Virus record (IMG/VR): IMGVR_UViG_3300035190_000493
Coordinates: 1 to 23,114 of that record
DNA length: 23,114 nt
Reading direction: 5' to 3' (one strand)
Origin: a virus
The position numbers and the translations under genes are program-made. The notes below the pieces were generated by a model. The model made no database searches, was not told where the DNA came from, and saw only the letters and a program-made list of their open reading frames with translations. Below, piece by piece: positions 8,821-17,823 of this stretch (its first letter is position 1; every line of letters begins with the position of its first letter).

Positions 8821-9048
8821 TCACCCATAAACTCTGGTTGTCGTTTTACCCCTGCAACCACAGGATTTACTGCGTCGACTGCACAAGTTCTGCAGTAGAA
8901 CGGAGCGTATTGTACCACAATCGCATCGGACTACAACAGCCCTTGCCTGGACCGGCCTACCTTTTTTTATGTAGTCCACAGGCTCAGACTCTCCGATCAC
9001 GGTCCAATGTGTATACACCTTACCCTCCACGTCTAGCCGCTTACCCAT
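8821..9048 (-). CDS. Small Cys-rich protein of the homing/AP2-associated type
   Basis: A 75-residue protein whose core (YTHWTVIGE ... VVRCDCGTIRSVLLQNLCSRRSKSCGC) matches a short domain found in phage proteins, often as the N-terminal part of HNH or AP2-containing DNA-binding proteins: a W-V-I strand, a CDCG knuckle and a final KSCGC. Only this small domain is present; no nuclease motif follows. The Cys pairs (CDC, CGC) suggest a zinc knuckle. ATG 9048 has GGAG about 8 nt upstream; the longer in-frame form would lie inside the neighbour. Confidence 0.7.
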   Translation of the reverse strand: MGKRLDVEGKVYTHWTVIGESEPVDYIKKGRPVQARAVVVRCDCGTIRSVLLQNLCSRRSKSCGCRGKTTTRVYG

Positions 9049-9238
9049 GCAATCTCCGCTCCCTGTCCTTGGGATGATGGGACGGTAGGGGACACCACCA
9101 AACCCACTGGCTATCTGGATACCAGACTCCGATAGTAGCAGCACCTAGATCAGTCTTCCATAGGCATTTAGCGTTCTTAGGGAAGGGGCCGTCCTCTACG
9201 TGTCGCCAGTAGGGTTTATACTCAGATACGTGCGTCAT
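9041..9238 (-). CDS. Trp-rich small hypothetical protein (DUF551-like?)
   Basis: A 65-residue protein with many Trp residues (KPYWRHVEDGPFP ... IGVWYPDSQWVWWCPLP). The W-x-x-V-x-DG-x-x-P start and the W-x-PLP end recall DUF551, a short phage domain of unknown role, but the match is loose. The start at 9238 forms an ATGA overlap with the RusA stop; an ATG 12 nt upstream is also possible. It overlaps the next gene by 8 bp. Confidence 0.65.
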   Translation of the reverse strand: MTHVSEYKPYWRHVEDGPFPKNAKCLWKTDLGAATIGVWYPDSQWVWWCPLPSHHPKDRERRLHG

Positions 9239-9600
9239 TTCATCTTGCATACTGTCACTATTACTCCACCATCTTGAATCGGATCACCGTACTCGGCCAC
9301 AATCAGCCTGATCTGTCTGTCAGTTTCAATGTACACGCCTTGGATAGAATCACCTATCACTTTGAGACAGTTGTCCAGGTCCATGCACACCTTGCTAGCC
9401 AGCCCTTTAGTTGTCAGCTTAGGGAGTAGCTGTATTGTAAGACTGACTTCACCTGCGTACAAGTCCTGAGCTGGACCAGCCTCCTTAACGATCTTCTTGA
9501 ACGCGGTTGCTTCCTTGCTTGGGACGGTCCTACCTCTGAAAGTCCTCCAGTAGCGGTTTGTGGATGGTGGGTAGGGTAGGTGTAGCTGGACTAGCTGCAT
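9235..9600 (-). CDS. rusA: RusA-like Holliday junction resolvase
   Basis: A 121-residue protein that matches RusA in length (about 120) and motifs. It begins with LPYPPSTNRYWR (residues 8-19), and has the catalytic DLDN at 74-77 followed by K80 and D84, and TDRQI with D94. D74, D76 and D94 correspond to the three metal-binding Asp residues of Escherichia coli RusA (D70, D72, D91). It cuts four-way junctions symmetrically, clearing branched DNA from recombination or replication before packaging. I chose ATG 9600; a GTG at 9642 would add residues that overlap a promoter. The ribosome site is weak. Confidence 0.85.
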   Translation of the reverse strand: MQLVQLHLPYPPSTNRYWRTFRGRTVPSKEATAFKKIVKEAGPAQDLYAGEVSLTIQLLPKLTTKGLASKVCMDLDNCLKVIGDSIQGVYIETDRQIRLIVAEYGDPIQDGGVIVTVCKMK

Positions 9601-9605
9601 TGTAG

Positions 9606-9635
9606 TTGACAGGTTGTGAGATGTGTGGTTAGAAT
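9606..9635 (+). promoter_or_regulatory. Sigma70-type promoter reading into the non-coding region
   Basis: A -35 box TTGACA (9606-9611, perfect) and a -10 box TAGAAT (9630-9635, five of six) are separated by 18 bp. The predicted transcription start is near 9642. It points away from rusA, into a 530-bp stretch without genes on the plus strand, so its product would be non-coding. Confidence 0.55.
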
Positions 9636-9639
9636 AGCA
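9631..9639 (-). promoter_or_regulatory. Possible extended -10 element for rusA
   Basis: On the minus strand TGC-TATTCT (plus coordinates 9631-9639) fits an extended -10 (TGnTATAAT, four of six in the hexamer). The -35 position is poor (GGGGTC). It overlaps the -10 of the plus-strand promoter almost base for base, so the two would exclude each other. rusA starts 31 bp downstream. Confidence 0.25.
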
Positions 9640-9972
9640 CACGGCTTGGGACTGACCCCTCAGCCAACATAGGCATACGGCGTAACGCTCGCACGCAGTC
9701 GGGAAACCTCTCTCCCGATCAAGAGGATCAGGATAGCTCTTTAATCGGCCTTAGCGCCATCATCCTGTACCCTGTAGCCCGTGAAGCTACAAACCTGCTC
9801 CTTCGGGACACACGGGGTCGTATGGTCCTCGATATACGTTAAGGCAACGAATTAAATGTTTCAGTAGCATTGACTCCGCTTCACAGCGGCCAAGCGTGTT
9901 GCTCTTTTCTCAAAAGCCGCAAGGGGCGGGCTTATACACCTCTATACACAGCGAGAGAGCAAGCGCGATACA

Positions 9973-10001
9973 TAGGACGATGCGACTAAAGCATCGTCCT
10001 A
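9973..10001. repeat. Perfect 11-bp inverted repeat
   Basis: TAGGACGATGC (9973-9983) and GCATCGTCCTA (9991-10001) are exact reverse complements around the 7-nt loop GACTAAA. No T tract follows on either strand, so it is not an intrinsic terminator. It is the strongest stem inside the candidate ncRNA; it could equally be a protein-binding site or replication structure. Confidence 0.7.
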
Positions 10002-10067
10002 GATTTGGTCCATCGTGATCCGCTGGCGTAGCCCCAAGCGTAGCCAGCGGGTTAACAGTTATCCTCT

Positions 10068-10110
10068 ATAGCATCAACTCGCGCAAAGGCGCTCGTAGAT
10101 GCTATTTTCT
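10068..10110 (+). terminator. Plus-strand terminator-like hairpin
   Basis: ATAGCATC (10068-10075) pairs with GATGCTAT (10098-10105). The interior continues with AC/GT and GCGC/GCGC around an AAAG loop, giving a nearly symmetrical stem of about 14 pairs with mismatches. TTTTCTCTT follows on the plus strand; no T tract follows on the minus strand. This orientation matches the promoter at 9606-9635. Confidence 0.55.
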
Positions 10111-10119
10111 CTTGCACAT

Positions 10120-10159
10120 AAAAAAGCGGGGTCGGATGCTTGAGGCATCCTTCCCCGCT
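10120..10159 (-). terminator. Strong intrinsic terminator after the prim-pol/helicase gene
   Basis: AGCGGGG (10125-10131) pairs with CCCCGCT (10153-10159), and inside it GGATGC (10134-10139) pairs with GCATCC (10145-10150). Read on the minus strand this 13-bp compound stem is followed by TTTTTT. It lies 14 bp beyond the stop at 10174 and should stop most transcripts from the prim-pol gene before the rusA block. Confidence 0.85.
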
Positions 10160-10173
10160 CACATTAAGACTAT

Positions 10174-14866: not shown

Positions 14867-14891
14867 AGGGGGCTTATGGCCCCCTTTTTTT
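14867..14891 (+). terminator. Intrinsic terminator/attenuator before the exonuclease
   Basis: AGGGGGC (14867-14873) pairs perfectly with GCCCCCT (14879-14885) around TTATG, followed by a run of Ts to 14891. It directly abuts the ATG at 14892. A second pair, TCTACA/TGTAGA, lies just upstream. As a terminator it would cut off the exonuclease from the operon, so read-through must be partial. Confidence 0.85.
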
Positions 14892-15899
14892 ATGGACATG
14901 GACATGAACCTACCAGAACAAATCGATCACGTGCTAGAACAAACGGTAGAGAATCCTAGACCACATATAGGTGGCTCTACGCTCGGCCATCCCTGCGACC
15001 GTTACCTGTGGCTGGCCTTTCACTGGGCGGTCACGCAGCAATGCCCTGGGCGGCTACTAAGACTGTTTAAGCGTGGACAGGACGAGGAAGCATCCGCTAT
15101 CCGGTACCTAGGACTGATCGGCGCAAAAGTGACGCAGCAGCAGCAGGTTGTTGACTTTGGACAGCATGTATCCGGTAGTGTAGATGGAATCATTACAGGC
15201 TTACCTGGACATGAGCTAGCGAAGGTGCTGTTGGAGGTTAAGACGCACAATAAAAAGTCGTTTAATGAGCTAGAGAAAAAGGGAGTACAGCTTGCTAAGC
15301 CCATACATTACACACAGATGCAGGTGTACATGCACGGGCTAAAGCTGGATCGTGCGCTGTACTACGCTGTTTGCAAGGATGACGACCGGCTACACACAGA
15401 GATAGTGATGTATAACCGGGAGGCGGCTGTCCTCGCTATCGAGCGTGGCCAGCGGATCGCTATGACCAGTAGAATGCCTGAGCCGATAGCTGCTACAGGT
15501 GATTACTATGTGTGCAAAATGTGCCCTATGACGGAGTTCTGCCACCAGACGCGATGCACCAAGAATGTCAATTGCCGAACATGCGCTTATGCTGATCCAA
15601 CAATAAACAGCACATGGAGATGTATGGTTCATGGTGCTGACATCCCGTATAACTGGCAACTATCAGGCTGCGATAATCATGTCCTTCATTCGGACCTTGT
15701 ACCGTGGCCTATGACGGTCAATGATGATGGCCCACCACAGTACAGGATTGACGGCAAACAAGTCGCTAACGGCGTGTCAGGGCCGGGAGTGTACAGTTCT
15801 AGGGAGATATTGGCTGATCCTGCTTTATGCGCGACTGCTGATCCCACCGTGGAAGAGCTGCGCTCACGCTTCAATGCAAAAATTGTTCAGCCTACTTAA
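14892..15899 (+). CDS. Cas4/RecB-like PD-(D/E)XK exonuclease with Fe-S-type cysteines
   Basis: A 335-residue nuclease. The PD-(D/E)XK core has SGSVDGI (94-100, D98) and LLEVKTHN (113-120, E115/K117), then QMQVYM (142-147), the RecB/Cas4 Q-x-x-x-Y motif. C35 plus C208-x2-C211-x5-C217 match the Cys layout of the Cas4/AddB 4Fe-4S cluster. A further Cys group follows (C222, C228, C231, then RC and GC before DNH), suggesting an added zinc site. It should resect DNA ends for the Sak4/DUF669 annealing system. Start: ATG 14892 abuts a terminator and has no good ribosome site; ATG 14904 is an alternative. Confidence 0.85.
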   Translation: MDMDMNLPEQIDHVLEQTVENPRPHIGGSTLGHPCDRYLWLAFHWAVTQQCPGRLLRLFKRGQDEEASAIRYLGLIGAKVTQQQQVVDFGQHVSGSVDGIITGLPGHELAKVLLEVKTHNKKSFNELEKKGVQLAKPIHYTQMQVYMHGLKLDRALYYAVCKDDDRLHTEIVMYNREAAVLAIERGQRIAMTSRMPEPIAATGDYYVCKMCPMTEFCHQTRCTKNVNCRTCAYADPTINSTWRCMVHGADIPYNWQLSGCDNHVLHSDLVPWPMTVNDDGPPQYRIDGKQVANGVSGPGVYSSREILADPALCATADPTVEELRSRFNAKIVQPT

Positions 15900-15907
15900 A
15901 ATTTTTG

Positions 15908-15935
15908 TTGACATTAGCATTCACAGCTTTACAAT
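15908..15935 (+). promoter_or_regulatory. Early promoter 2
   Basis: TTGACA (15908-15913, perfect) and TACAAT (15930-15935, five of six) with a 16-bp spacer, the same layout as early promoter 1. The predicted start, near 15942, falls inside the left arm of the inverted repeat 15937-15970, so the repeat can act as DNA operator, RNA hairpin or both. Confidence 0.85.
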
Positions 15936-15936
15936 A

Positions 15937-15970
15937 CTCCTTAACGCGGCAATTCAGCCGCGTTAAGGAG
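15937..15970 (+). promoter_or_regulatory. 14-bp inverted repeat masking a perfect Shine-Dalgarno
   Basis: CTCCTTAACGCGGC (15937-15950) is the exact reverse complement of GCCGCGTTAAGGAG (15957-15970) around the loop AATTCA. The right arm contains the first half of the Shine-Dalgarno TAAGGAGGTGAT, which is complementary to the 16S rRNA 3' end over twelve bases and ends three bases before the ATG at 15979. Folded RNA would hide the ribosome site; the DNA form overlaps +1 of promoter 2. Confidence 0.9.
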
Positions 15971-15978
15971 GTGATATT

Positions 15979-16056
15979 ATGAGCGACGCAACAGCATTTT
16001 TACTAACTGGGCTTATTGCCCTTTTGCTGGCCTATGCTTACGTGGGGATGATCTAA
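15979..16056 (+). CDS. 25-residue membrane peptide with the strongest ribosome site in the window
   Basis: A 25-residue peptide. After MSDATA comes a Leu/Ile/Ala hydrophobic helix (FLLTGLIALLLAYAYV) spanning the membrane, ending GMI. It follows an extended Shine-Dalgarno and heads early operon 2. The stop TAA shares its last A with the next ATG (TAATG). Features of a regulated tiny membrane peptide: hairpin-controlled initiation, own promoter and coupling to the next gene. It may act on the host membrane, or simply serve as a translated leader for the next gene. Function not known. Confidence 0.7.
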   Translation: MSDATAFLLTGLIALLLAYAYVGMI

Positions 16057-16355
16057 TGAGTATGGAAACTGTAACCTGTGAACTCGATGGTATACAGGTG
16101 GAATGTACGCTTGAGGTTGAGCCGGATACACCGGCTTACACGTCTGGTCTACCAGAGAACTGTTATCCAGCAGAGGGTGGTATCGGTGACATAGAAGTGA
16201 CATATACCACAGATGGGCTGGTCAAAGTAGATGGTCAATGGATTAAGTTTGATGACGTAATGGTCGATATTACCGACCTGCTAACCCATGAGCAAATGGA
16301 ATCACTAACGGAACAATGCTATGACTATTTTAGCAAAGATCAAACAGAGTATTGA
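16056..16355 (+). CDS. Highly acidic small protein, unknown
   Basis: A 99-residue protein with 23 Asp/Glu, three Lys and no Arg, so strongly negative. It looks beta-rich (VTCELDGIQVECTLEVEPD, GDIEVTYTTDG, GQWIKFDDVMVDITD) with a C-terminal helix (LLTHEQMESLTEQCYDYF). Similar short phage proteins with an ELDGI start and a DITDLL end are familiar to me without function. The charge would fit a DNA-mimic, which is speculation. Its ATG shares one base with the preceding stop; an in-frame ATG two codons later is possible. The end is overlapped by a second ORF for 35 bp. Confidence 0.75.
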   Translation: MSMETVTCELDGIQVECTLEVEPDTPAYTSGLPENCYPAEGGIGDIEVTYTTDGLVKVDGQWIKFDDVMVDITDLLTHEQMESLTEQCYDYFSKDQTEY

Positions 16356-16501: not shown

Positions 16502-16864
16502 ATGAGCTTTTTAGAGACTGTTTACCAACAGGTGCTGTCCATGCACCTTCCAGCAAGTAGTAACGATGTTTGCATCGCTATGAAAAACCATGAGTCGATG
16601 GGCGTACTGTCACCCGTCGCTAAGCGTGAAAAGGTCCGTAAGGCGCTGGCTGACCTACGCACTAAGCGGAAAGTGCTGATCTCATGGACTGATGACGACG
16701 GCATATTGTGGTGGAACCTAGCCCATCAAGAGGATACCAAACCGCAAGAGGCTGTCAGTGATGTCCCAGAAAAGCTGCCGGAGCTGTCTCATTCCGTCAT
16801 CGTCATGCGTCAGATGCTTCGAGAGATCAGCAGGGCCTTGCTAAAGGCAGCCGATGATCTCTGA
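16502..16864 (+). CDS. Putative winged-helix-like protein, unknown
   Basis: A 120-residue protein. Residues about 15-70 (ASSNDVCIAMKN ... KREKVRKALADLRTKRKVLIS ... DGILWWNLA) have the helix-helix-hairpin order of a winged-helix DNA-binding fold, with a Lys/Arg-rich recognition-like helix. The rest is a Pro/Glu linker and an amphipathic C-terminal helix (VMRQMLREISRALLKAADDL). A regulatory role in the early operon is plausible but unproven. GGGAG lies 8-9 nt upstream of the ATG. Confidence 0.7.
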   Translation: MSFLETVYQQVLSMHLPASSNDVCIAMKNHESMGVLSPVAKREKVRKALADLRTKRKVLISWTDDDGILWWNLAHQEDTKPQEAVSDVPEKLPELSHSVIVMRQMLREISRALLKAADDL

Positions 16865-17388: not shown

Positions 17389-17660
17389 GAGTATTAGTTT
17401 TGTTGTTAATGTGTGGTGCCGCTAACGCATCAGTAGGCTGTTACACTTACGGCAGCATCACTACCTGCGGTGATGGCGTGTCCATCTACCGATTCGTCAA
17501 CATGTCGCAAGTCATTACCCCACAAGGCTCGACCACCGTATATAATTACGATAACGGCAAAAGCGGGACTCGCACGATCATGGTACCAAGAAACTCTGCT
17601 CCCAAGCCCTACTTGGAGCCGTTGTTTGACACTCCCTTGCTGAAACCCTCGCTAGACTGA
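17385..17660 (+). CDS. Secreted small protein with signal peptide, unknown
   Basis: A 91-residue protein with a classical signal peptide: Arg2, a Val/Leu/Met core and a cleavage site after A15 (AANA-S). The mature part is small with two Cys close together (GCYTYGSITTCGDG), which could form a disulfide in the periplasm, and a Pro-rich tail. A strong ribosome site AAAGGAGG lies 5-6 nt before the ATG, and an ATGA overlap couples it to the previous gene. It is the last gene of operon 2; its 3' end overlaps the convergent spanin-like gene by 83 bp. Confidence 0.7.
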   Translation: MRVLVLLLMCGAANASVGCYTYGSITTCGDGVSIYRFVNMSQVITPQGSTTVYNYDNGKSGTRTIMVPRNSAPKPYLEPLFDTPLLKPSLD

Positions 17661-17823
17661 TCTGAATAAGGTTAATGTCTTTGCGGACCTCGCTCATTTC
17701 CTTTGCTCTCAGATCGAGGCTTTTCTCCAAAGCCTCGATCTGATATACCTGCTCGCGCTGCGTGACGTACATGGTAATAGCAATGCCTAGCACTCCTAGT
17801 ACCGCTTTGAGTAACTCGCTCAT
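17578..17823 (-). CDS. Spanin-like membrane-anchored coiled-coil protein
   Basis: An 81-residue protein with an N-terminal transmembrane helix (about residues 4-20, LLKAVLGVLGIAITMYV) followed by a charged coiled-coil periplasmic-type segment (VYQIEALEKSLDLRAKEMSEVRKDINLIQ). This layout and the position right after holin and endolysin fit an inner-membrane spanin (Rz-like) or a lysis accessory protein. No embedded Rz1-type lipoprotein was found. The start at 17823 overlaps the holin stop in ATGA. The gene contains a perfect 15-bp inverted repeat, and its last 83 bp overlap the convergent gene. Confidence 0.55.
   Translation of the reverse strand: MSELLKAVLGVLGIAITMYVTQREQVYQIEALEKSLDLRAKEMSEVRKDINLIQISLARVSARECQTTAPSRAWEQSFLVP
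17709..17743. repeat. Perfect 15-bp inverted repeat inside the spanin-like gene
   Basis: TCAGATCGAGGCTTT (17709-17723) and AAAGCCTCGATCTGA (17729-17743) are exact reverse complements around TCTCC. No T tract follows on either strand. It lies between the convergent operons, 49 bp beyond the end of the plus-strand gene, and codes for QIEALEKSLDLR in the minus-strand protein. It may be a transcription block, an RNase III site, or a decay barrier for both converging messages. Confidence 0.9.

Follow-up and report, generated by a model that had tools for sequence, protein, structure and literature searches.

Genomic context

The analysed stretch of 23,114 nucleotides (the window) covers part of the genome, about 38 kb long, of a tailed phage. 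Portal, terminase and replication proteins were recognised among its products, the terminase sharing about 55% identity with its counterpart in Pseudomonas phage H66, and a near-complete IMG/VR record of 37.6 kb (G001) is 100% identical to the window over the shared parts, in circularly permuted order. On the plus strand, a gene group extending up to 15899 encodes a Sak4-like annealing protein, an SSB-like protein and a Cas4-domain exonuclease. It is followed by a promoter, a hairpin that holds part of the SD, and a series of small genes without assigned function, starting with the two listed for operon 2 in Table 1.

Several other features were observed in the vicinity and elsewhere in the window. 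The exonuclease gene has no SD, and its ATG is directly abutted by a terminator-like hairpin (14867-14885) with seven T (the whole feature spanning 14867-14892), which is present with changes in one relative (L003) and missing in another (L006). The 120-aa product of 16502-16864 resembled a winged-helix protein at first sight and was considered as an autorepressor, but its Pfam match is insignificant (E 0.16) and its structure model too poor to use (pLDDT 41). Further upstream, about 500 bases to which no gene is assigned (9606-10170) begin with a near-consensus plus-strand promoter, TTGACA-18-TAGAAT, and end close to a GCGGGG/CCCCGC hairpin. Relatives are 89% conserved over 8979-9972, which overlaps this stretch, and no Rfam match was found for it; it is a possible candidate for a phage non-coding RNA.

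Table 1. Features at the start of operon 2 and in its surroundings (positions in the window)
Feature	Position	Strand	Remarks
Cas4-domain exonuclease gene	14892-15899	+	PHROG 1990, E 3e-86; putative source of read-through RNA
-35 box TTGACA	15908-15913	+	
-10 box TACAAT	15930-15935	+	
Left arm CTCCTTAACGCGGC	15937-15950	+	First 5-6 bases are anti-SD, between -10 box and predicted start
Predicted transcription start	15942-15944	+	7-9 bases past -10 box, consensus spacing; A at 15943 preferred
Loop AATTCA	15951-15956	+	AATCAA in L006
Right arm GCCGCGTTAAGGAG	15957-15970	+	
SD TAAGGAGGTGAT	15964-15975	+	12 bases complementary to the 16S 3' end
Membrane-peptide gene	15979-16056	+	25 codons; ATG at 15979, stop at 16054-16056 overlaps next start
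Second gene of operon 2	16056-16355	+	99 aa, no function assigned

Promoter, inverted repeat and SD

The original prediction described a near-consensus promoter, followed at once by a perfect 14-bp inverted repeat and a perfect 12-base SD lying partly in its right arm, and all three were recovered. The promoter, TTGACA-16-TACAAT (15908-15935), agrees with the sigma70-type consensus at 11 of 12 positions, its spacer of 16 being one short of the optimum of 17; this consensus was the yardstick used, and the promoter rules of the host may differ from it. The inverted repeat begins one base after the promoter, its arms (15937-15950/15957-15970) pair perfectly over 14 bp, and the right arm holds 7 of the 12 SD bases. 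When folded from 15937, the RNA reaches -28.3 kcal/mol (z -5.7), a value equalled by none of 200 shuffles. Shuffled windows contained a mean of 0.07 perfect repeats of at least 12 bp (loop 3-10) each, and the 14-bp repeat exceeds chance expectation, as had been claimed. The palindrome by itself is not unique in the window, where the longest perfect repeat has 15 bp and a 5-base loop (17709-17743, inside a predicted minus-strand reading frame at 17578-17823, where plus- and minus-strand gene groups converge); what is unique is its position together with its conservation. No Rfam family matched at gathering score anywhere in the window.

Conservation in related phages

The element was found in seven IMG/VR contigs (L001-L007), which together with the window represent three sequence variants, and a search with the hairpin pattern returned seven viral contigs only, all from the same phage group. 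Two of them (L001, L002) have the window sequence, and three (L003, L004, L005) have a hairpin identical to that of the window. In the comparison of L003 with the window, 34 of 34 hairpin bases are identical, along with 10 of 16 in the promoter spacer and 2 of 8 in the leader. The third variant (L006, L007) has the arms CTCCTTAACAGGGC/GCCCTGTTAAGGAG and a different loop; in L006, two neighbouring pairs are altered on both sides with respect to the window, from G-C to A-U and from C-G to G-C. All 14 pairs are maintained in every variant, and the outer 9 bp of each arm are invariant. The shuffle control for covariation was weak, with the observed value reached in 23 of 500 shuffles and three variants only. 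The variants thus appear to support symmetric pairing, and alone they do not separate an RNA stem from a DNA dyad.

A DNA dyad is what the original prediction had in mind when it also read the palindrome as an operator over +1. According to this explanation, a dimeric repressor, encoded by the phage or by the host, would bind the 34-bp palindrome near +11 and block the promoter, the RNA hairpin being a by-product. The perfect dyad is centred at about 15953.5, near +11, which is also where the lac operator is placed, the symmetric changes in L006 suit it equally well as they suit an RNA stem, and the constancy of the outer 9 bp agrees with it. However, operators usually, though not necessarily, recur at other promoters, and the palindrome has no further copy, allowing 3 mismatches, in the window or in the contigs of six relatives, nor was one seen in the near-complete 37.6-kb genome. 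Half-sites elsewhere occur singly, and none of the products tested from the near-complete genome was recognised as a repressor, most of its small products having no known function. Both arguments are weak in a genome full of unassigned genes. The geometry of the dyad near +11 is good, and we regard the operator as an unlikely explanation of the element.

Outside this phage group, blastn against annotated phages gave no match at the hairpin. Among the matches listed for a promoter-plus-CTCCTT pattern, AAGGAG followed at the hairpin distance downstream in 2 of 116 sampled sites, and the design is therefore not general. A version with a perfect TATAAT gave, among the matches listed, scattered look-alikes, few of them with a good -35 box.

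The first gene of operon 2

In the membrane-peptide gene, L003 and L006 differ by seven synonymous and three non-synonymous codon changes, with no change in a second position; judged by these changes, the 25-codon peptide is a real gene. The original prediction had regarded this peptide as the partner of the hairpin. This is ruled out, since the identical hairpin stands before a 116-aa gene instead in L003, L004 and L005. The alignment of L003 with the window stops at 15971, one base past the right arm, and continues from 16029. Between these points L003 has open frames of 116, 83 and 51 aa, so that the peptide comes fourth in L003, shifted downstream and without this hairpin. The mosaic boundary between the two (window 15971, L003 7080) coincides exactly with the end of the right arm. 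An exchangeable first gene behind a retained hairpin is as expected for a lock that belongs to the promoter-SD unit.

Predicted start site and the cost of opening the SD

As the -10 box ends at 15935, the transcription start is expected within the left arm, a position that we infer from the consensus spacing. The anti-SD bases CTCCT(T) would therefore be part of the promoter region and would be absent from the local RNA. For a start at 15943, the predicted stem consists of 15943-15950 paired with 15957-15964, which leaves AAGGAG (15965-15970) unpaired. A transcript from 15942 was computed to retain nine pairs, the number previously estimated.

The cost of opening AAGGAG was computed for RNAs beginning at each successive position. 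In the window, read-through RNA (starts up to 15937) requires 13-14 kcal/mol, and past 15937 the cost falls to about 10, 8, 5, 3 and 2 kcal/mol at successive starts, reaching 0.6-2.4 kcal/mol at 15943-15944, depending on the amount of downstream sequence included. RNA from the local promoter would keep 8-9 pairs; these reach AAGGAG or end immediately short of it, and opening costs about 0.6-3.4 kcal/mol. In the other two variants, the cost for read-through RNA drops from 10-14 to 0.6-0.7 kcal/mol (L003) and from 10-12 to 0.2-0.9 kcal/mol (L006) when the RNA begins at left-arm base 7 or 8, which is the predicted +1 in all three. The median change in 18 promoter-SD-start units, taken as a control from loci fetched by protein homology, was 0.4 kcal/mol, and within such loci only the three variants of the hairpin element changed by more than 5 kcal/mol. 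The claim that the hairpin hides the SD is consequently supported for read-through RNA and not for RNA from the local promoter.

In the RNA reading of the original prediction, the hairpin would hide the SD of the local transcript too, and some factor or temperature would then have to open it. This would hold if transcription started at or before 15937, where opening costs about 13 kcal/mol. However, 15937 is 2 bases past the -10 box, RNA polymerase is not known to start that close to it, and no better-placed promoter was found, so that a locked local transcript seems highly improbable.

Alternatively, the blunt hairpin of 8-9 bp could stabilise the local transcript by blocking RppH and RNase E, the sequestration of the SD in longer RNAs being incidental. 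These enzymes depend on single-stranded 5' ends, and mRNA is stabilised by 5' structures (PMC3997798). With a start at 15942-15944, the predicted 5' end would be paired from its first base, and the compensatory changes preserve the inner GC-rich pairs. Such a role leaves unexplained why, in every variant, the palindrome extends 5-6 bp beyond +1 on the upstream side and there matches the anti-SD exactly. As this extension is not needed by a 5' stabiliser, it counts for a lock, and we consider stabilisation as the main role to be improbable, somewhat more so than the operator. Both roles may nevertheless coexist with the lock.

A proposed start-dependent lock on read-through RNA

The sequence, the folding energies, the conservation and the two compensatory pairs together suggest a start-dependent ribosome-site switch at operon 2, which we hold to be probable, if only by a little. 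The exonuclease gene contains no promoter-like site above 9/12, and no terminator-like site was found between this gene and the hairpin, so that its transcript should enter the hairpin; we infer that such read-through RNA exists and that its folding affects translation. As it would contain both arms, the full 14-bp hairpin would form and close the SD of the first gene of operon 2. The exonuclease stop codon precedes the left arm by 37 bases, a distance from which a terminating ribosome probably could not melt the stem. Locally started RNA, on the other hand, would begin in the left arm, lack the anti-SD bases and carry a stem of 8-9 bp at its extreme 5' end, with the SD free. The first gene of operon 2, whichever it is, would thereby be translated only from its own promoter, and the short 5' stem may additionally shield the message against decay. 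A point against the lock is that read-through RNA could be made scarce by the terminator-like site at 14867-14885, ahead of the exonuclease gene.

More tentatively, and with less confidence than in the switch as such, the 63-bp unit at 15908-15970 could be viewed as a portable cassette that combines a promoter, translational insulation from read-through, a protective 5' stem and a docking point at which phages swap the first gene of the operon, the untranscribed bases between the -10 box and +1 doubling as the anti-SD lock. If the switch as such is real, the trick by which T4 ties translation to the choice of start site would also be used with ordinary sigma70-type promoters in unrelated small-genome phages, and the element would represent a compact, easily testable natural insulator. 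Otherwise, annotation would count the first gene of operon 2 as also expressed from the upstream operon.

Comparison with known systems

Pattern searches also returned sequences of other kinds. In cellular genomes, the outer-arm pattern led, among the matches listed, to a different element in many Clostridia, which has a long loop and precedes an MFS-type gene. In these (L394, L455, L463, L503 and others), CTCCTTAAC-N12..20-GTTAAGGAG is followed closely by a gene of about 365-390 aa, which is an MFS transporter in the one member tested with Pfam; the element may be an operator or a ribosome-site hairpin. Several viral contigs among the matches listed (L522, L534, L562, L572, L595, L599, L603, L620, L630) have a TATAATCTCCTTATC-like leader, a small hairpin and GAAAGGAG, a leader that recurs before different genes, mostly with a good -35 box missing.

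In the fold-back of IS10 type, external read-through RNA hides the ribosome site, and the element's own promoter escapes. The proposed lock and escape at operon 2 are the same, whereas a transposase gene and the inverted repeats of an insertion sequence are found only in IS10. A 5'-terminal stem is shared with the stabilising stem-loops of ompA and papA, which lack the anti-SD extension upstream of +1 (PMC3997798 and references therein). Furthermore, in seg43(25) of Aeromonas phage 25, a stable hairpin abuts the ribosome site directly upstream of an uncovered SD (PMC2988022); it resembles the local transcript predicted here, with no local start described within its stem.

The closest comparison is offered by phage T4. 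There, the SD of e, soc, 49 and I-TevI is held in a stem when the transcript is a long incoming one, and transcripts from a promoter located at the stem's 5' strand lack this strand and are translated; for gene e, sequestration reduces lysozyme synthesis about 100-fold (PMC3014915, PMC2988022). As in T4 e, soc and I-TevI, the SD of operon 2 would be sequestered in upstream RNA, at a computed folding cost of 13-14 kcal/mol in the window and at least about 10 kcal/mol in the other two variants, and a local start in the left arm, predicted from promoter consensus and folding, would free it (0.2-2.4 kcal/mol). Unlike in T4, the late promoter TATAAATA is missing, and TTGACA-16-TACAAT is of sigma70 type. 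The stem is a perfect 14 bp here, the local RNA retains a short 5' stem touching the SD, and the phage is unrelated. The purpose of the lock is evident in T4, where early RNA runs into the region of a late local promoter; the local promoter here is sigma70-like, which counts against the lock.

A search with the CTCCTTA...TAAGGAG pattern revealed, among the matches listed, CTCCTTATAAATA...TAAGGAG hairpins with TATAAATA in three viral contigs (L080, L091, L184), and the comparison with T4 therefore rests on more than literature. Like the hairpin in the window, they have the same anti-SD and SD hexamers with a start codon behind, the gene in L184 encoding a gp5-type baseplate protein; they differ in that the T4-type late-promoter motif overlaps the left arm, and they were found by pattern in unrelated phages. 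The element at operon 2 is thus real and conserved, and most likely a start-dependent switch of the T4 type, here with a sigma70-type promoter: it would work like the start-dependent SD hairpins of T4, yet it is not a member of their late-promoter class.
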